Positions 3,638 to 18,966 of a stretch of DNA of 64,000 nucleotides are shown piece by piece. The translations under genes and the position numbers were made by a program. This DNA comes from Streptomyces bauhiniae (GTDB lineage Bacteria > Actinomycetota > Actinomycetes > Streptomycetales > Streptomycetaceae): assembly GCF_004784475.1 (NCBI RefSeq), contig NZ_SRRT01000007.1, positions 62,001 to 126,000 on the forward strand, written 5' to 3'. The first letter of the stretch is position 1. Each line of letters begins with the position of its first letter. The notes below the pieces were generated by a model. That model ran no database searches. It was not told the DNA's origin and saw nothing but the letters and a program-made list of their open reading frames with translations.

Positions 3638-3798
3638 CGTTGTCTCCGGTTGCTTGCAAAAAACTGTGGTCGTCGTGGTTGTGCCAGCCTACGGCCAGCG
3701 GGAGGAGATGCGGACGGGCCTTCACTCCGTGTGGAGATTGGCGCACATGCCGTACGGGGCAAGGAGTGGGTACGGCTACGAGGAGGTGGCGGCGACGC

Positions 3799-4821
3799 AT
3801 GACGAGCATGTCGAGGGCGAGAGTGGCCCGGCGCATCGCGGCCGGGGCGGCGTACGGCGGCGGCGGGGTCGGACTGGTGGGCGCGGCCGCCGTCGGACTG
3901 CTGCTGACGGAGATGCGGATGGCGCGGCGCCATGTGAACAACGGCGGCGCCAGCGGCCGGGTCCCCCTGGCGGACGGTGTGTACGGCGCGGGGTACGGGC
4001 GCTTCGGCGAGCCCCCGCTGCGGCTGGCGATGCTGGGCGACTCCACGGCCGCCGGGCAGGGCGTGCACCGGGCGGGCCAGACACCGGGCGCGCTGCTGGC
4101 CGCCGGGCTGGCGGCGGTGGCGGAGCGGCCGGTCTCGCTGCGCAACGTCGCCCTGCCGGGCGCCACCTCGGACGACCTGGAACGACAGGTGGCGCTGGTG
4201 CTGGCCGCCCCGATCACCGCGCCCGACATCTGCGTGATCATGATCGGCGCCAACGACGTCACCCGCCGCATCCCGCCCACCCGCTCGGTGCGCCACCTGT
4301 CGGCGACGGTACGGCGGCTGCGCTCGGCCGGTGCCGAGGTGGTGGTCGGCACCTGTCCCGACCTCGGCACCATCGAGCCGGTGCGGCAGCCGCTGCGCTG
4401 GCTGGCCCGGCGCGCCTCACGGCAGCTCGCGGCGGCGCAGACCATCGGGGCGGTGGAGCAGGGCGGCCGGACGGTGTCGCTGGGCGACCTGCTGGGCCCG
4501 GAGTTCGCGGCCAACCCCCGCGAGCTGTTCGGCCCGGACCACTACCACCCCTCGGCCGAGGGGTACGCGACGGCGGCGATGGCGGTGCTGCCCACCCTCT
4601 GCGCGGCGCTCGGCCTGTGGCCGGCCGAGGAGGAGCAGCCGGACGCCTCGCGCCGGGAGGGCTTCCTGCCCGTGGCCCGCGCGGCCGCCGAGGCCGCGTC
4701 GGAGGCGGGTACGGAGGTCGCGGCGGCGATGCCGACCGGGCCGCGCGGCCCGTGGGCGCTGCTCAAGCGGCGCCGGCGCCGCCGGGTGCGGGAGACGGAA
4801 CCGGTCACGCCCTCTGGCTGA
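3799..4821 (+). CDS. SGNH/GDSL-family hydrolase, membrane-anchored or secreted
   Basis: A 340-residue esterase/lipase-type protein. The SGNH blocks are visible: GDS at 80-82 (Ser82 nucleophile in LAMLGDSTAAG), GAND at 150-153, and the catalytic D247/H250 in DHYHPSAEG. A hydrophobic stretch at about residues 13-37 after a basic N-terminus suggests a signal anchor, so it likely acts outside the membrane on esters or acylated cell-envelope material; the substrate is unknown. The start is the ATG at 3799, with AGGAGG 12 nt upstream; the ATG at 3808 is an alternative. The tail is Arg-rich (KRRRRRRVRE). It is divergent from cbs and followed by a perfect hairpin. Confidence 0.82.
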   Translation: MTSMSRARVARRIAAGAAYGGGGVGLVGAAAVGLLLTEMRMARRHVNNGGASGRVPLADGVYGAGYGRFGEPPLRLAMLGDSTAAGQGVHRAGQTPGALLAAGLAAVAERPVSLRNVALPGATSDDLERQVALVLAAPITAPDICVIMIGANDVTRRIPPTRSVRHLSATVRRLRSAGAEVVVGTCPDLGTIEPVRQPLRWLARRASRQLAAAQTIGAVEQGGRTVSLGDLLGPEFAANPRELFGPDHYHPSAEGYATAAMAVLPTLCAALGLWPAEEEQPDASRREGFLPVARAAAEAASEAGTEVAAAMPTGPRGPWALLKRRRRRRVRETEPVTPSG

Positions 4822-9031: not shown

Positions 9032-9083
9032 GGCCGGCCGCCGGTCCCCCGCGGGAGGCGCTCGCGGGAACCGGCGGCCGGCC
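9032..9083 (-). terminator. Terminator hairpin of the peptide/M50 operon
   Basis: A 14-bp stem (9032-9045 with 9070-9083) with a second inner GC stem, about 20 bp past the stop of the secreted protein. It marks the end of the operon that begins at the peptide genes. Confidence 0.75.
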
Positions 9084-9105: not shown

Positions 9106-9777
9106 TCAGTGGCCCGGCCAGCCGTCCAGTCGGCGGTGCAGGGTGACGTCCGGCCGCTCGGTGCCCTTGGGCGCCTTGGCCACGGCCGCCTGGAGGACGC
9201 CGTTCACCTCGCCCGCGAGGGCGTCCACCCGCTGCTGCAGCTCGGTGGCGGGCAGCGTGGACCGGGTCAGCGCGTCCAGCCTGCGGTGGATGTCGGCAAG
9301 CCGGCGCCGGGCCCCGGCGTCCAGGGTGAGCCGGTGCGGCGTCGAGACGACGAACTGGTAGGCGCCGGCCAGCGTCTGGCAGCCGTCGCAGTACTTGTTG
9401 GCCGCGTCGCTGACGTTGACCGCCTTCAGGTGGTGCGCGTCCCCGGCGACCGTGACGATCTGGAAGGACAGCGCGACCGAGCGGCAGTGGTCGTCCACCG
9501 AGCAGCCCATGGAGACGGCGCGCGCCTGGTTGCGTACGGAGGTCGCGTCGACCTTGCCGAACTGGCGGATGGTGAAGGAGTCGCGGGCCTGGGTGTGGTG
9601 GAGCCGGTTGGCGTTCGTGAACACGCTGTCCGACACCACGGCGGCCGACCGCGCGGGCCCGGTCGCGGCGTGCGCCGGGACGGCGGTGGCCACGCCCGCC
9701 GCACCGGCGGCGAGAAGGACGGTACGGACGGCCCGCCCGTTGAACGGACTGCTGCGTGGTTTCCGGTGGCTGCTCAT
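9106..9777 (-). CDS. Secreted protein of unknown function, last gene of the peptide/M50 operon
   Basis: 223 residues with a clear Sec signal peptide: basic N-terminus, hydrophobic core (TVLLAAGAAGVATAV), likely cleavage after AHA near residue 37. The mature part has four cysteines in two close pairs (MGCSVDDHC and YCDGCQ), suggesting disulfides or metal binding outside the cell. A helical C-terminal third follows (RRRLADIHRRLDALTRS). The ATG has GGGAGAGAA upstream. It lies 56 bp after the M50 peptidase gene on the same strand and shares its terminator, so it is probably a functional partner of the peptidase or peptides. No known family recognised. Confidence 0.75.
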   Translation of the reverse strand: MSSHRKPRSSPFNGRAVRTVLLAAGAAGVATAVPAHAATGPARSAAVVSDSVFTNANRLHHTQARDSFTIRQFGKVDATSVRNQARAVSMGCSVDDHCRSVALSFQIVTVAGDAHHLKAVNVSDAANKYCDGCQTLAGAYQFVVSTPHRLTLDAGARRRLADIHRRLDALTRSTLPATELQQRVDALAGEVNGVLQAAVAKAPKGTERPDVTLHRRLDGWPGH

Positions 9778-9833
9778 GGGTTCTCTCCCGAGGAATGAAT
9801 GAAGGACGTGCTGATGAGGGGCCGCGACGGGGA

Positions 9834-11774
9834 TCAGGACGTGGACACCGGGGCCGGTGAATCGGTGGTCGGCGGCGTCGAGGGCTCGGGGGTCGGCGTC
9901 GGGGCCGCGCTCTCCGACGGGACCGACGACGTCTCCGTGACCGGGGGCGGCGACTGCTGCGGGGGCGGATCGCCCCCCGTGGCCGGGCCGCTGCTGCTCT
10001 CGCTCTGCCGGGGCCCGTCCTCACCGCGCGTCGGCTTGTCCGGTGCCGTCGACGCGGCGGCCGACGGCTGCGGCGCGGAGGCGGAGGCATCCGCCGAGGC
10101 CCCGGCGCTCGGGTCCCCCGGCTTGCCCTCGGCCGGTGCTCCCGGCGAGACCGAGGGCTCACCGGAGGCGGCGCCCGGCCCGCCGGAGGTGCCCTCCGGA
10201 CCGGCGCCCGGTGTCGAGGCGTCCGGGGACGGCGGTGGTGTGGTGGGCACCCCCGGCTGGAGGATCGGCGCGATGGGCGGCTTCTTCGGCAACGGCTGCG
10301 GGGTCACCCCGGACGACCAGGCGTACGCGAGCCCGCCGAGCCCGGCGAGCAGCACCCCGCACAGCGCGACACGCAGCGTCGGCCGGCCGGCCGTGGAGCG
10401 CTTGGCCAGCCGGAACAGCCGGCCGCCGATCTTCACCGAGAGATAGAGGACACCGGCCATCGGGAACAGCAGCATCAGCGTGCCGAGCACCCCGACCAGG
10501 CCGGACAGCACGTCCCCCGACGCGAACGCCGACCCCGTGCCGGTGACCTGCTCGGTGAGCGAGCGGATCATCGTGCTGATGATCCGGGGCAGGTTCCACA
10601 GCCCGTAGCCCAGCTCGCCGATGATCAGCGGCACCATGGTCAGCACCCAGGTGGCGACGATGGTGCGCGCGGACTTCTTCAGCCCCGCGACCTCCTGGCG
10701 GGCCGACTGCCCCCGCTTCCCCGGCACCAGGGAGAGCAGGATCGGCTTGATCTTGCCGTACAGGTCCGGGACGCCCGCGAGGTCGCCCAGGATGTAGTAG
10801 CCGTCCAGGCGGACGGCGGGCATGAGCTGTTCCAGGATCTCGAAGTGGCCGAGGTAGACCGCGGCCAGGAAGAACTGCTCCCCGGTGGCGAAGTAGGCGC
10901 CGGCCATGGCCAGCATGAAGACGACGTTGAAGTACACCCCGCCGAAGTCGGTGCGGATGCGCCCGGCCTTGCCGATCCGGTAGACGTCGGTGACGTCGGT
11001 GTACATCGACGGCCAGATGAGGAAGAGCCCGCAGCCGATGCAGCCGGGTCTCGCTCCGCCGTACCGGCACGCGGAGGCGTGGCCGAACTCGTGGAAGACG
11101 AGCGAGGCCACGGTGAGCACGAAGACCAGCAGGATGAGCACCGGCTGGTCCAGCACCTCCAGCACCGGCTCGATCGCGCCGAAGAAGCCGAACAGCCAGA
11201 CGTCCAGGACGACGGCCGCCAGCAGCACCGCCGCGACCACCGCCGGTCGGTGCAGCCAGGCGAACGACTTGGCGATCCGGGCGGTGCGCCGCTCGTCGAA
11301 GATGACCCGGTGGCCCTTGAGGGCGAGCAGCAGGTCGGAGCGCGGGGCGTCGACCTCGTCGCTCTCCTGACCCTCCGGGACCGTCACGCCCAGCGGGTCG
11401 AGCTTGTTCTCCACGAGGTAGCGGATGTTCTCCCCGCTGACCTCGCGGCCGAAGCGGGCGCTGACCCGGTGGGCGATCGTGTCGTCGTCGCGGACCCCGT
11501 CGACGGACGACGCCACCAGGTACAGCAGGCGTGAGAGCTGCACGACCTGCCCGTCCCCCCGACGGGCGATGTACTTGGGCTCGGTGAAGCCCGAGCCCTG
11601 GTACTCACCGTGCAGCCGCAGCCCCGCGCTCAGCCGCGGAACGGGCCGGACCGGCACCCCGGCGACCGGCAGGCTGCCGGTCGCCACCTGCTCGTACGTC
11701 ACCGGCCAGCCACCGGGTCCGGGCAGCGGTCCGGTGTCGTACAGCGTGGTCGTGCCGTTCCCCAGCACCGTCAT
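9834..11774 (-). CDS. M50-family membrane zinc metalloprotease with PqqD-like N-terminal domain
   Basis: 646 residues. Residues about 60-140 resemble a PqqD-like winged fold (KYIARRGDGQVVQLSRLLYL, then IRYLVENKLDPLGV), the fold that binds leader peptides in RiPP pathways. A multi-helix membrane domain follows, with the zinc site HEFGH at 228-232 and the third-ligand motif RLDGYYILGD. WPSMYTDVTDVYR is typical of the bacterial 'putative peptide zinc metalloprotease' branch. The last ~115 residues are a Pro/Ser/Thr-rich tail, probably outside the membrane. The ATG at 11774 has GGGGAGA upstream; upstream in-frame starts lack a site. It lies 125 bp after twin peptide genes, so processing or exporting those peptides is the natural inference. 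Confidence 0.87.
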   Translation of the reverse strand: MTVLGNGTTTLYDTGPLPGPGGWPVTYEQVATGSLPVAGVPVRPVPRLSAGLRLHGEYQGSGFTEPKYIARRGDGQVVQLSRLLYLVASSVDGVRDDDTIAHRVSARFGREVSGENIRYLVENKLDPLGVTVPEGQESDEVDAPRSDLLLALKGHRVIFDERRTARIAKSFAWLHRPAVVAAVLLAAVVLDVWLFGFFGAIEPVLEVLDQPVLILLVFVLTVASLVFHEFGHASACRYGGARPGCIGCGLFLIWPSMYTDVTDVYRIGKAGRIRTDFGGVYFNVVFMLAMAGAYFATGEQFFLAAVYLGHFEILEQLMPAVRLDGYYILGDLAGVPDLYGKIKPILLSLVPGKRGQSARQEVAGLKKSARTIVATWVLTMVPLIIGELGYGLWNLPRIISTMIRSLTEQVTGTGSAFASGDVLSGLVGVLGTLMLLFPMAGVLYLSVKIGGRLFRLAKRSTAGRPTLRVALCGVLLAGLGGLAYAWSSGVTPQPLPKKPPIAPILQPGVPTTPPPSPDASTPGAGPEGTSGGPGAASGEPSVSPGAPAEGKPGDPSAGASADASASAPQPSAAASTAPDKPTRGEDGPRQSESSSGPATGGDPPPQQSPPPVTETSSVPSESAAPTPTPEPSTPPTTDSPAPVSTS

Positions 11775-11899
11775 CCGTGGTCTCCCCCCACCTTGACGCC
11801 ACATCGATGCCGCCGCGCTTCCCCCGGCATGGCCGCGGGGGCGGACCGCCCCGCACTCGGGCGCGGTCCGCCCCCGTGACCGCCGTCGCGGCGGTGGTG

Positions 11900-12118
11900 C
11901 TACTGCTTGACGCTGATCGTCTGCCCGGCCTGCGACTGGGCGTCCGACCACAGCGAGTGGTCGTTGAGCGCGGCGGACTGGTTGGCGGCTTCGATGTTGG
12001 CCACGTGCTTGGTGACGTTGACCGTCTTGTTGAAGCTGAACTTCAGCTTGCCCAGGGCCTCGCGGCCCGGCAGCAGCTCGGCGGACTCGGCGTCCAGGTC
12101 GCGCATGTCCATGCTCAT
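11900..12118 (-). CDS. Candidate precursor peptide 1 (RiPP-like), 72 aa
   Basis: Small acidic-to-neutral peptide with no signal sequence. Residues 10-55 match peptide 2 at 45 of 46 positions, including ESAELLPGREALGKLKFSF and NVTKHVANIEAANQSAALN. The last 17 residues vary (LWSDAQSQAGQTISVKQ) but share the W-S and ISV.Q framework. A conserved front with a variable C-terminal tail is the leader/core pattern of ribosomally made, modified peptides. ATG at 12118 has GAGGGGAA upstream. It is followed by the M50 peptidase gene. No modifying enzyme other than the peptidase is adjacent, so assignment to a RiPP is inference. Confidence 0.75.
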   Translation of the reverse strand: MSMDMRDLDAESAELLPGREALGKLKFSFNKTVNVTKHVANIEAANQSAALNDHSLWSDAQSQAGQTISVKQ

Positions 12119-12183
12119 GATGGTGTTCCCCTCTTACCGTGCTTGGCGTGCTGTGCTTGCCGGCGGTTTCCCGACGGTCCGGA

Positions 12184-12399
12184 CTACTGGGTGACGCTGA
12201 TTGCCTGCGAGGCGCCGGAGCCGGCGACGGACCACGCCGAGTGGTCGTTGAGCGCGGCCGACTGGTTGGCCGCCTCGATGTTGGCGACGTGCTTGGTGAC
12301 GTTCACCGTCTTGCCGAAGCTGAACTTCAGCTTGCCGAGGGCCTCGCGGCCGGGCAGCAGTTCGGCGGACTCGGCCTCGAGCTCGTGGGCGTCCATCAT
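12184..12399 (-). CDS. Candidate precursor peptide 2 (RiPP-like), 71 aa
   Basis: Paralogue of the next gene in tandem, 65 bp away. Its tail is AWSVAGSGASQAISVTQ. The two genes differ at many third codon positions while the first ~55 residues stay the same, so the protein, not just the DNA, is being conserved. ATG at 12399 is preceded by GAGGGGGAA; the ATG at 12396 is also possible. It is the first gene of the operon running through the M50 peptidase to the secreted protein, and its promoter side contains the TGTCCAA palindromes shared with the divergent XRE gene. Confidence 0.75.
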   Translation of the reverse strand: MMDAHELEAESAELLPGREALGKLKFSFGKTVNVTKHVANIEAANQSAALNDHSAWSVAGSGASQAISVTQ

Positions 12400-12638: not shown

Positions 12639-13046
12639 GTGGCCAACGCACTGCAGCAGTTGATCCGCGAGCGCCTGGACCGCGAGGGCTGGTCCTACGG
12701 CGAAGTGGCACGTCGCGGCGGCGTCCCCCGCTCCACCGTCCACCATCTGGCCACCACCGAGCGCGTGGTGCGCATGCCCCAGGCCGGCACGCTGGAGGGC
12801 CTGGCCAAGGGGCTCGAACTCCCGCTGGACACCGTCCGCCGGGCGGCCGCCGAGGCGTGCGGCATCCATGTGTACGGCAGTCCGGCCGGTGAGGACTCCG
12901 CACCGGCCGCGCCCCGCTCCGGTGACCCCGAGGTGGATCTGCTGATCGCCAGCGTGCAGCGGCTGTCGTCCGACGACCGCAGACACGTCACCGCGCTGGT
13001 GGAGTCCCTGCTCGGCCGCGCGGCGAAGCCGGAGCAGCGGGACTGA
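12639..13046 (+). CDS. XRE-family helix-turn-helix regulator
   Basis: 135 residues with an N-terminal Cro/CI-type helix-turn-helix (about 18-45; SYGEVARRGGVPRSTVHHLA) and a conserved following helix (TLEGLAKGLELPLDTVRRAA). A short linker and a helical C-terminal segment (DLLIASVQRLSSDDRRHVTAL) follow, possibly for dimerisation. The GTG start has AGGAAG 9 nt upstream. It is divergent from the twin-peptide operon with palindromes between them, which makes it the likely regulator of that operon, of itself, or both. Confidence 0.85.
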   Translation: MANALQQLIRERLDREGWSYGEVARRGGVPRSTVHHLATTERVVRMPQAGTLEGLAKGLELPLDTVRRAAAEACGIHVYGSPAGEDSAPAAPRSGDPEVDLLIASVQRLSSDDRRHVTALVESLLGRAAKPEQRD

Positions 13047-13218: not shown

Positions 13219-13479
13219 GTGTTGTTGGTGCATGGCGGCCCGGCCACCGCGGTGGTCCGGGGCCCGGACGGCGAGTCCGTCGTCCTCCTGTCCGGCGAAC
13301 TCCCCGAGGTCCTCACCGACCAGGCGGTCCACGAACTCCTCGACCTCGCCGCGGCCATCCTGGACACCCCCGAACTGACCCTCTTCCGCACCTGCCTGAC
13401 CACCCTCCGCACGAACGGCATGCGAGCGGGCCGCAGCATCGAGGTCGACGGCGCGGTACTGACGGTCTACGAGGGCTGA
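13219..13479 (+). CDS. Small conserved hypothetical protein
   Basis: 86 residues, no signal peptide, with alternating beta-like and helical segments (ATAVVRGPDGESVVLLSGEL; AVHELLDLAAAILDTPEL). GTG start with GGGGGAA a few bases upstream. It is followed by the bldA region and probably monocistronic. No family recognised; codon bias and ribosome site support a real gene. Confidence 0.6.
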   Translation: MLLVHGGPATAVVRGPDGESVVLLSGELPEVLTDQAVHELLDLAAAILDTPELTLFRTCLTTLRTNGMRAGRSIEVDGAVLTVYEG

Positions 13480-17550: not shown

Positions 17551-18846
17551 TCAGGTGTTCCAGGTGCGGGTGCGCGCCGGGAGGCCCGAGGTGCCGGTCT
17601 CCGGGGTGCGGACGGCGAGGACCTGGTTGACGCCGATCTGGTTGCGCTCGAAGGCCAGCGCGGAGGCCGCCATGTACAGCCGCCAGACGCGGGCGCGGCC
17701 GAACCCGGCGAGCCGCGTCGCGCGGGCCCAGTCGCCCTCCAGGTTGGCCACCCAGGCGCGCAGGGTGCGGGCGTAGTGCTCGCGCAGCGACTCCACGTCC
17801 CGTACCTCGAACCCGGCGCGCTCCAGCATGGTGACGGTGGTGCCCAGCGGGGCGAGTTCGCCGTCGGGGAAGACGTAGGAGTCGATGAAGGCGTCCACCT
17901 CGTACGCCGTCTCGTCCTGCTGGGGGCGGCGGGCGATCTGGTGGTTGAGCAGGCGTCCGCCGGGCTTCAGGAGGCCGTACAGGTCGCGTGCGTAGTCCAG
18001 GTAGCGTTCGGCGCCGACGTGTTCGGCCATGCCGATGGAGGAGATCGCGTCGTAGGGGCCGTCGCGGACGTCGCGGTAGTCCTGGACGCGGATCTCGACC
18101 CGGTCGGTGAGGCCCTCGTCGGCGACGCGCTTGCGGGCGAAGGCGGCCTGCTCCTGGGAGAGGGTGACGCCGACGACGCTGACCCCGTGCTCGCGGGCGG
18201 CGTGCACGGCCATCGAGCCCCAGCCGCAGCCCACGTCCAGCAGCCGCTGACCGGGCTTCAGGCCGAGCTTTTGGCAGACCAGTTCCAGCTTGTCGCGCTG
18301 GGCGGTCTCCAGGGAGCAGTCGTCCTCCCAGTAGGCGCAGGAGTACACCATGGACGGGCCGAGGACGAGGGCGTAGAAGTCGTTGCCCACGTCGTAGTGG
18401 TGGCTGATGGCCCGCTTGTCGGTGCGGCGGGTGTGCAGATGGCGCCGCCTGCGGACCTCCTCGCGCGGCGGGGCGGGCGGCAGCGGTGGCCCGACGAGCC
18501 GGATCAGGTCGCGGACGGCGGCCCGGGCGGCGGGGTCACGCACCGTGTCGGCGAGGGAGCGGCCGCGCCCCTCGTCGTCGTGCTCCCAGAGCAGGCCGGC
18601 CATGGCGCCGAGGGCGGTGTACAGATCGCCCTCGATGTCCAGGTCGCCGGCCACCCAGGCGCGGGCCATGCCCAGTTCGCCCGGCTTGAACAGCATGCGG
18701 CGCAGGGCGCGCCGGTTCCGTACGACGATCACGGGAGCCCCCGGCGGCCCGGCCTGGGAGCCGTCCCAGGCGCGTACCCGCACCGGGAGGGGCGCTCCCA
18801 GCAGTTGTTCGGCAACACTCACCAAGCGCGACGCGGCGTCGGCCAT
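17551..18846 (-). CDS. Cyclopropane-fatty-acyl-phospholipid synthase family methyltransferase
   Basis: 431 residues. The SAM-binding motif is DVGCGWG (204-210). Family signatures are HHYDVGNDFYALVLG (from 149) and YSCAYWEDD (168-176), the bicarbonate/active-site region of cyclopropane and mycolic-type cyclopropane synthases. The enzyme transfers methylene from SAM to the double bond of an unsaturated acyl chain in membrane phospholipid; related members methylate other lipids, so the exact product is uncertain. The ATG at 18846 has GGAGG 8 nt upstream, chosen over an upstream in-frame start. It lies downstream of ndh on the same strand, with a hairpin between. Confidence 0.88.
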   Translation of the reverse strand: MADAASRLVSVAEQLLGAPLPVRVRAWDGSQAGPPGAPVIVVRNRRALRRMLFKPGELGMARAWVAGDLDIEGDLYTALGAMAGLLWEHDDEGRGRSLADTVRDPAARAAVRDLIRLVGPPLPPAPPREEVRRRRHLHTRRTDKRAISHHYDVGNDFYALVLGPSMVYSCAYWEDDCSLETAQRDKLELVCQKLGLKPGQRLLDVGCGWGSMAVHAAREHGVSVVGVTLSQEQAAFARKRVADEGLTDRVEIRVQDYRDVRDGPYDAISSIGMAEHVGAERYLDYARDLYGLLKPGGRLLNHQIARRPQQDETAYEVDAFIDSYVFPDGELAPLGTTVTMLERAGFEVRDVESLREHYARTLRAWVANLEGDWARATRLAGFGRARVWRLYMAASALAFERNQIGVNQVLAVRTPETGTSGLPARTRTWNT

Positions 18847-18966
18847 GACGCACACCTCCAAGACGACGATCCCGGATGTCCGTTACCACGTAAACACCGC
18901 GCCGTACCCGGCACAGTCCCGCATTGGGGTTACGACAGGGCAAAACAGGGGGCGCGGCCGGGAACG

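Follow-up and report, generated by a model that had tools for sequence, protein, structure and literature searches.

Membrane-embedded proteases of the M50 family accompany the production of small peptides in several described systems. Specifically, the daptide protease MpaP (NCBIfam NF041824) is described as an intramembrane M50 peptidase that removes the leader of its precursor in a manner dependent upon a recognition element (RRE) for ribosomally synthesized and post-translationally modified peptides (RiPPs) (PMC10036551). A second report presents the epipeptide protease EpeP/YydH/LiaK (NF058609) as an M50 enzyme believed to cleave a small peptide and export it, and the pearlin proteases TglG and TmoG as membrane-bound M50 enzymes that act upon scaffold-type peptides and free a modified C-terminal amino acid (PMC10885120). 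Here we describe an arrangement found in 64,000 nucleotides of Streptomyces bauhiniae DNA (contig NZ_SRRT01000007.1, positions 62,001 to 126,000; hereafter the window, to which all coordinates refer unless a locus is named), in which two small peptide genes, an M50 protease gene and one for a signal-peptide protein form, together with two divergently transcribed genes, a cassette and not a chance cluster. The interpretation that we place first, and for which we regard the prospects as evenly balanced, is that this cassette carries out leader-guided maturation and export of peptides, the hairpin cores of which assemble with the secreted partner outside the cell.

The cassette and its distribution

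The operon lies on the minus strand, running from 12399 to 9106 in the order pepA, pepB, M50 gene and signal-peptide protein gene, with intergenic gaps of 65, 125 and 56 bases in that order. The features of the region are as follows.

12184..12399, minus strand: pepA, 71 amino acids; leader (ELEAESAELLPGREALGK) followed by a putative strand-turn-strand core
11900..12118, minus strand: pepB, 72 amino acids; layout as in pepA, leader residues 13-24 invariant except position 14, core unit at about residues 39-72
11831..11881, no strand assigned: hairpin separating pepB from the M50 gene, with arms of 22 nt that are 86% complementary
9834..11774, minus strand, ATG at 11774: M50 intramembrane metalloprotease with predicted RRE-like domain, 646 amino acids, C-terminal tail rich in Pro, Ser and Thr
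11370..11645, minus strand: stretch of the M50 protein predicted to form an RRE-like domain (bbb-aaa), approximately residues 44-135
11079..11093, minus strand: HEFGH motif of the M50 protein, residues 228-232
10782..10808, minus strand: LDGYYILGD motif of the M50 protein, residues 323-331
9106..9777, minus strand: signal-peptide protein, 223 amino acids, predicted to form six long strands, two long helices and a final strand
9445..9546, minus strand: unit 1 of the secreted protein, residues 78-111, Cys92/Cys98
9340..9435, minus strand: unit 2 of the secreted protein, residues 115-146, Cys130/Cys133, aligning with the peptide core
9032..9083, no strand assigned: inverted repeat 3' of the operon, 18-nt arms, candidate terminator lacking a U-tract
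12639..13046, plus strand: divergent helix-turn-helix (HTH) gene, 135 amino acids, with the distribution of the peptides (the same 19 of 199 genomes)
13219..13479, plus strand: divergent gene for an 86-amino-acid protein lacking a family model, distributed like the peptides (the same 19 of 199 genomes)

An original prediction for this region, made from its letters, had assigned the four operon genes a common strand and a common terminator. The strand assignment stands, whereas a consensus scan of the minus strand revealed no terminator with a U-tract, leaving the inverted repeat at 9032-9083, which is shorter than the repeat located inside the operon. The interval proposed for the locus (9106-12399) takes in the four genes but omits the two divergent genes that co-occur with them. 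The gap between pepB and the M50 gene folds with unusual stability (z of -2.0 or lower, each value derived from 60 single-letter shuffles) in 12 of the 14 relatives checked, which were drawn from 21 two-peptide loci; the exceptions are L008 (z -0.3) and L009 (z -1.6).

The peptides have relatives at 36 loci, which come from named genomes belonging to Streptomyces, Actinacidiphila and Actinospica. Within the flanks available, an M50 gene is present at 31 of these loci and a secreted-protein gene at 27, and at five of the nine loci lacking the latter the sequence stops inside, or shortly after, the M50 gene. At the level of the genus, the peptides occur in 19 of 199 genomes, taken as Streptomyces as follows from the named relatives, and the same 19 genomes harbor the secreted protein, a close M50 relative (E below 1e-228), the HTH gene (E <= 1e-20) and the 86-amino-acid gene (E <= 1e-8). 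The M50 gene thus accompanies the peptides in 19 of 19 genomes, and the notion that homologues might as a rule lack it fails. One additional genome, G008, matched the secreted protein at E 1e-4 over residues 1-53 only and was set aside as a chance match to the signal region. More distant M50 relatives were found in eight genomes of the genus, six further ones and two of the 19, and were classed as clade VI (L080-L086) or as daptide type (L087, L088). Among the five peptide loci without an adjoining M50 gene, four belong to genomes with a close M50 gene elsewhere; at L033 and L165 the peptide adjoins the secreted protein while the M50 gene is found elsewhere in the genome. Plain synteny was considered as a cause of this linkage and is less likely, given that flanking ABC, Bax-inhibitor and other genes recur at 10, 9 or fewer of the 36 loci, as compared with 30 for the HTH gene and 27 for the 86-amino-acid gene, counts for which some loci offer partial flanks and several have the HTH relative kilobases off.

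The Pfam matches of the HTH protein are to DNA-binding families only. Its weak matches to anti-phage models, the only such matches obtained, were judged generic, and an anti-phage identity was set aside. No Pfam or NCBIfam model scored above its cut-off with any of the peptides, protease, secreted protein and 86-amino-acid protein, or with the ten relatives' proteins that were scanned.

A copy of the cassette (L153:3760-14477, NZ_CP107797.1) is carried by a 343-kb linear Streptomyces plasmid typed as mobilizable; a second peptide gene (3760-3972, identified by its coordinates) lies approximately 7 kb off, beside IS3-type transposase genes. The plasmid is annotated with 'hypothetical protein' for the peptide, the protease and the secreted protein of this copy alike.

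Peptides, protease and secreted partner

The near-identical tandem peptides first seen in the window are borne out, with 45 identities in the best 46-residue block and 58 of 71 overall, and the recurrence of their relatives at 36 loci, mostly with the M50 and secreted-protein genes, takes the arrangement beyond chance. The codon differences between pepA and pepB number 11 synonymous and 13 nonsynonymous. Twin peptides, a feature of the window locus, are not the rule, as two are present at 21 of the 36 loci and one at 15. In an alignment of 33 of the 59 peptides available (two from the window and 57 from the 36 loci, near-duplicates and broken copies being left out), pairwise identity is 93% across residues 8-24, 60-61% across later stretches and 40% in the turn at residues 53-57, and residues 13-24 are invariant at every position but 14. 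Within residues 40-72 the invariant residues A40, A44, N46, S48, N52, A60, A64, Q66, I68 and Q72 are all of one parity, and S55, in the turn, is the sole invariant residue off it. Consistent with this arrangement, mean entropy over the same stretch is 0.49 at even and 1.88 at odd positions, a difference as extreme as which was obtained in 0 of 20,000 permutations. Such alternating conservation points to a strand-turn-strand pattern. A single Cys is present in 10 of the 33 aligned peptides, as counted by eye, and is always located at position 54 in the turn.

These data support the leader/core logic originally proposed for the peptides, since the leader motif remains constant across divergent M50 clades while the cores differ. 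The core itself had been placed in the last 17 residues; the alternating conserved stretch is instead residues 40-72, and the near-identical block of pepA and pepB consequently covers half of the core. A sequence search of solved structures with the peptide alignment returned no match.

Downstream of the peptides, the 646-residue reading frame contains both the HEFGH and the LDGYYILGD motifs that had led to its designation as an M50 protease. HEFGH at residues 228-232 and LDG at 323-325 are present throughout an alignment of 19 M50 proteins (residue 230 varies), composed of the window copy and 18 of the 31 M50 genes after near-duplicates and broken copies were left out. The M50 gene of L025 has a frame break that reflects either sequencing error or decay. 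A hydropathy plot of the window protein displays membrane-like segments, six of them clear, which we read as seven membrane helices; HExxH and LDG motifs together with membrane helices are the features by which site-2 (M50) peptidases are recognized. The Pfam model Peptidase_M50 reaches just E 0.014-0.057 in two relatives. The daptide protease model matches the window protein at E 6e-23, in a match that spans the N-terminal domain from residue 67, and the epipeptide protease model does so at E 4e-10 over residues 212-329. Solved structures, searched by sequence with the alignment of the M50 core, yielded no match.

A predicted model of residues 44-172 consists of three strands and three helices followed by two less certain helices. 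In a structural second look at the PDB with this N-terminal domain, the top row is 6jx3_B, in which a lasso B1 protein is accompanied by its leader (Z 8.8, 82 residues, root-mean-square deviation (rmsd) 2.9), followed by TbiB1 (8.2), TigE, MibB, a sactipeptide enzyme, TruD, TbtB, ThcOx, TglHI, McbBCD and others. Entries 5v1v (8.2), 5v1u, 8vpo, 5ehk, 5why, 4bs9 and 6ec7, which contain RREs, are among these rows. The topology, the run of RiPP enzymes and the relation to the daptide protease together lead us to regard the domain, with moderate confidence, as an RRE-like leader-binding fold, an assignment less firm than that of the motifs above. A Pfam PqqD search of the window's own genome found two weak places, neither of which is the M50 gene.

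The signal peptide and two close Cys pairs (92/98 and 130/133) initially noted in the fourth product of the operon are likewise present. An AlphaFold model of this protein (mean predicted local distance difference test score (pLDDT) 81) contains six long strands together with two helices and a final strand. The strand pairs are read as hairpins because the strands flank the Cys-bearing turns. A fold search with the model retrieved no clear solved relative (best Z 4.1), which is not proof of a new fold, and a sequence search of solved structures with the secreted-protein alignment gave three chance-level matches only. That alignment comprises the window protein and 17 of the 27 secreted proteins, L018 and L025 having been dropped as broken. 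The apparent stop in the L018 secreted-protein gene and the one TGA in the secreted-protein match at L055 may each represent sequencing error or decay.

Comparison of the secreted protein with the peptides suggests, again less firmly, that the two are similar. The alignment of unit 2 with the core of the peptides is ungapped (N-x-S-x-A-x-N ... A-x-Q; hhalign P 0.0045), and the ungapped profile score was matched in 0, 1 and 0 of 400 shuffles under three schemes. Additionally, when 21 cores from clade II were compared separately with the secreted domains of clades II-IV, P was 0.0012, with Q falling on Q again.

Relatives across the actinobacteria

Of 246 genomes of the class, 48 (from 22 of 103 genera) contain relatives of the M50 protein at E <= 1e-10, and in 43 of these E falls below 1e-70. 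Outside clade I, 41 places fall below 1e-70, namely L084 and 40 others, 35 of which were read with flanks; left out of this reading were five of the 40 places, and one of three places in genome G129. When these 35 loci are joined by the seven distant loci from the genus, an open reading frame bearing the leader pattern lies upstream of the M50 gene at 40 of 42 loci, downstream at 2 and on the other strand at 2. The leader pattern was written after the data had been seen, so the upstream count is descriptive and the downstream and other-strand counts act as its control. At L119, one of the two loci without an upstream frame, the sequence stops near the M50 start.

Core types differ among M50 clades, and the clades of the M50 tree agree with them, an agreement that is descriptive given that clade labels were set partly from neighboring peptides and fusions. 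Clade II loci possess mostly three tandem peptides with cores of the type NAxxAxPVNAAVAANVLSD. At 9 of the 13 clade III (fused) loci, precursors of 219-387 amino acids with repeated modules are seen. Clades IV, V and VI contribute further core types, that of clade VI having Cys pairs; in the genus, clade VI loci (L080-L086) hold one to three leader-motif precursors per M50 gene, each with a Cys-pair core that is often Gly/Ser-rich. The secreted domain is present at 24 of the 35 class-level loci and at 13 of these is found inside the M50 reading frame itself; two loci, L126 and L152, carry it on the opposite strand. In the phylum, relatives of the secreted protein occur in 8 of 198 genomes, five of them outside the class, and among the five stretches concerned three contain an M50 gene and two contain leader peptides.

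A proposed mechanism, its rivals and its relation to known systems

In the mechanism that we propose, the RRE-like domain of the M50 protein would bind, in the cytosol, the conserved leader (ELxxExAELLPGREALG) of the two small precursors, and the intramembrane zinc protease would cut between leader and core so that the core is released outside the cell. There, the strand-turn-strand core may assemble with, or be nucleated by, the secreted protein bearing two similar Cys-pair units. The divergent HTH gene is probably the regulator of the cassette, and the hairpin 3' of pepB probably holds peptide expression above that of the protease. The M50-unit fusions and the similarity of the units suggest that the peptide comes together with its protease and its partner; the parts of the mechanism that we infer are cleavage and where it takes place, export, membrane topology, assembly and a role at the surface. 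A broader proposal, which we advance tentatively and hold to be the less probable of the two, is that the cassette represents modification-free secretion and assembly, in which RiPP-style leader recognition and intramembrane proteolysis would build an extracellular beta-hairpin polymer or sheath upon a related secreted nucleator, widespread in Actinomycetota and with cores swapped behind one leader.

Several observations weigh against the proposed mechanism. Firstly, one draft genome (G435) has a peptide and another genome (G444) a secreted protein with no M50 match in either, and in G034 the HTH matches are located on other contigs than the peptides. Secondly, the whole window M50 protein has no Pfam match at E <= 1, Peptidase_M50 included. 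Thirdly, the PqqD-like leader-binding fold of the original prediction is favored by a structural second look led by RRE proteins, but the Pfam PqqD model misses the N-terminal domain and Foldseek found no match to its model at E <= 0.001. That model is itself moderate (mean pLDDT 70.7, with two of five models near 70 and three near 40), Z values near 8 are common in the second look, and 8hkr (a methyltransferase, Z 8.3) and GdmN (Z 7.5), which are not known as RRE proteins, score about level with the RRE rows. The hhalign probabilities for the similarity of core and unit are 8% and 19%, so the likeness amounts to moderate evidence. Finally, a profile search turned up no secreted unit next to the M50 genes of clade V, nor did a search by motif alone next to those of clade VI, and the partner is accordingly not universal; in clade IV, the M50 protein of L125:6617-8899 has a C-terminal MinD/ParA-like domain (approximately residues 513-691, E 3e-9, below curated cut-offs), which fits badly with an extracellular tail there. 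The M50 proteins of L132 and L137 are similar in length to that of L125.

Among the rival explanations, the one that fares best, although we consider it unlikely, is that of a true RiPP, the cores of which are modified by an enzyme encoded elsewhere and then cut by the M50 protease and released, with the secreted protein protecting the producer. RRE and M50 proteins are both known from RiPP clusters, as two reports relate (PMC10036551, PMC10885120), the nearest named models are the daptide and epipeptide proteases, and clade VI cores include Cys pairs and Gly/Ser-rich stretches. The original prediction had found no standard maturase adjacent to the peptides, and indeed Pfam identifies no known RiPP maturase in the ten genes flanking the cassette in the window, nor is one named among 25 features around the plasmid copy, the relatives not having been systematically screened. 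That no modifying enzyme was found near the window copy leaves the term 'RiPP' unproven, and a RiPP in the strict sense is not supported. Moreover, the further co-occurring genes that were found encode the HTH and 86-amino-acid proteins, and conservation of the core looks structural across 33 residues.

We judge it quite improbable that the peptides are unmodified multi-peptide bacteriocins or toxins directed against related strains, with the secreted protein serving as immunity factor or binding partner. The frequent presence of two or three tandem peptides, the patchy distribution (19 of 199 genomes) and the plasmid copy are what such toxins would lead one to expect; the partner, however, is itself secreted and has units in common with the peptide, 13 loci have it fused to the protease, loci with a single peptide are frequent (15 of 36), and the core appears by eye neither strongly hydrophobic nor cationic. 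Least probable of all is peptide signaling, in which the M50 protease would make a pheromone sensed by the HTH or secreted protein: M50 proteases of Firmicutes mature peptide pheromones and co-occurrence with the HTH gene is strict, but a conserved core of 33 residues is long, the HTH protein is short (135 amino acids) with Pfam matches confined to DNA binding, and clade III precursors of 219-387 amino acids with repeated modules would be odd for a signal.

Returning to leader-guided maturation and export, one of the closest described counterparts of the cassette is the daptide system, with which it shares an M50 protease of detectable homology and small conserved-leader precursors nearby. The differences are several: the window M50 protein scores 81.6 bits against a cut-off of 300, the cassette has an additional secreted partner, no daptide precursor model matches pepA or pepB at E up to 1, and Pfam identifies no decarboxylase/alcohol dehydrogenase or aminotransferase in the ten flanking window genes. 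Daptide clusters combine an oxidative decarboxylase, an aminotransferase and a methyltransferase; the CMAS-type methyltransferase gene at 17554-18861 is separated from the cassette by 5 kb or more and does not represent a known kind of RiPP maturase. The two daptide-type rows, furthermore, stand apart in the M50 tree. At these two loci (L087:1888-8590 and L088:2027-9740), distant M50 genes lie beside daptide-type precursors, which match the daptide model NF041808 above its cut-off, and LanKC, a lanthionine synthetase of class III that likewise scores above cut-off; L088 also has a daptide dehydrogenase, and both are mixed daptide/lanthipeptide clusters.

The epipeptide protease is likewise homologous to the window M50 protein, which nonetheless scores 39.8 bits against a cut-off of 225 and has no epimerase among its ten flanking genes. 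The pearlin proteases are set apart by description and not by sequence, there being no hint of that chemistry here. Among the titles listed from the open-access literature none describes the cassette, and an earlier description elsewhere is possible. In curli (CsgA/CsgB) and FapC, small secreted strand-turn-strand subunits are paired with a related nucleator, and these systems provide a working analogy only: neither peptides nor secreted protein belong to a Pfam family above cut-off, the export route differs from that of curli, and the secreted-protein model compares with the CsgA fibril at Z 3.4 and rmsd 8.3. The cassette is thus, by the tests run, neither daptide nor epipeptide, and follows the logic of a RiPP without a known maturase in the neighborhood examined. 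Should the proposed mechanism prove true, RRE-guided M50 proteolysis would extend beyond natural-product chemistry and serve also as an export route for structural peptides.

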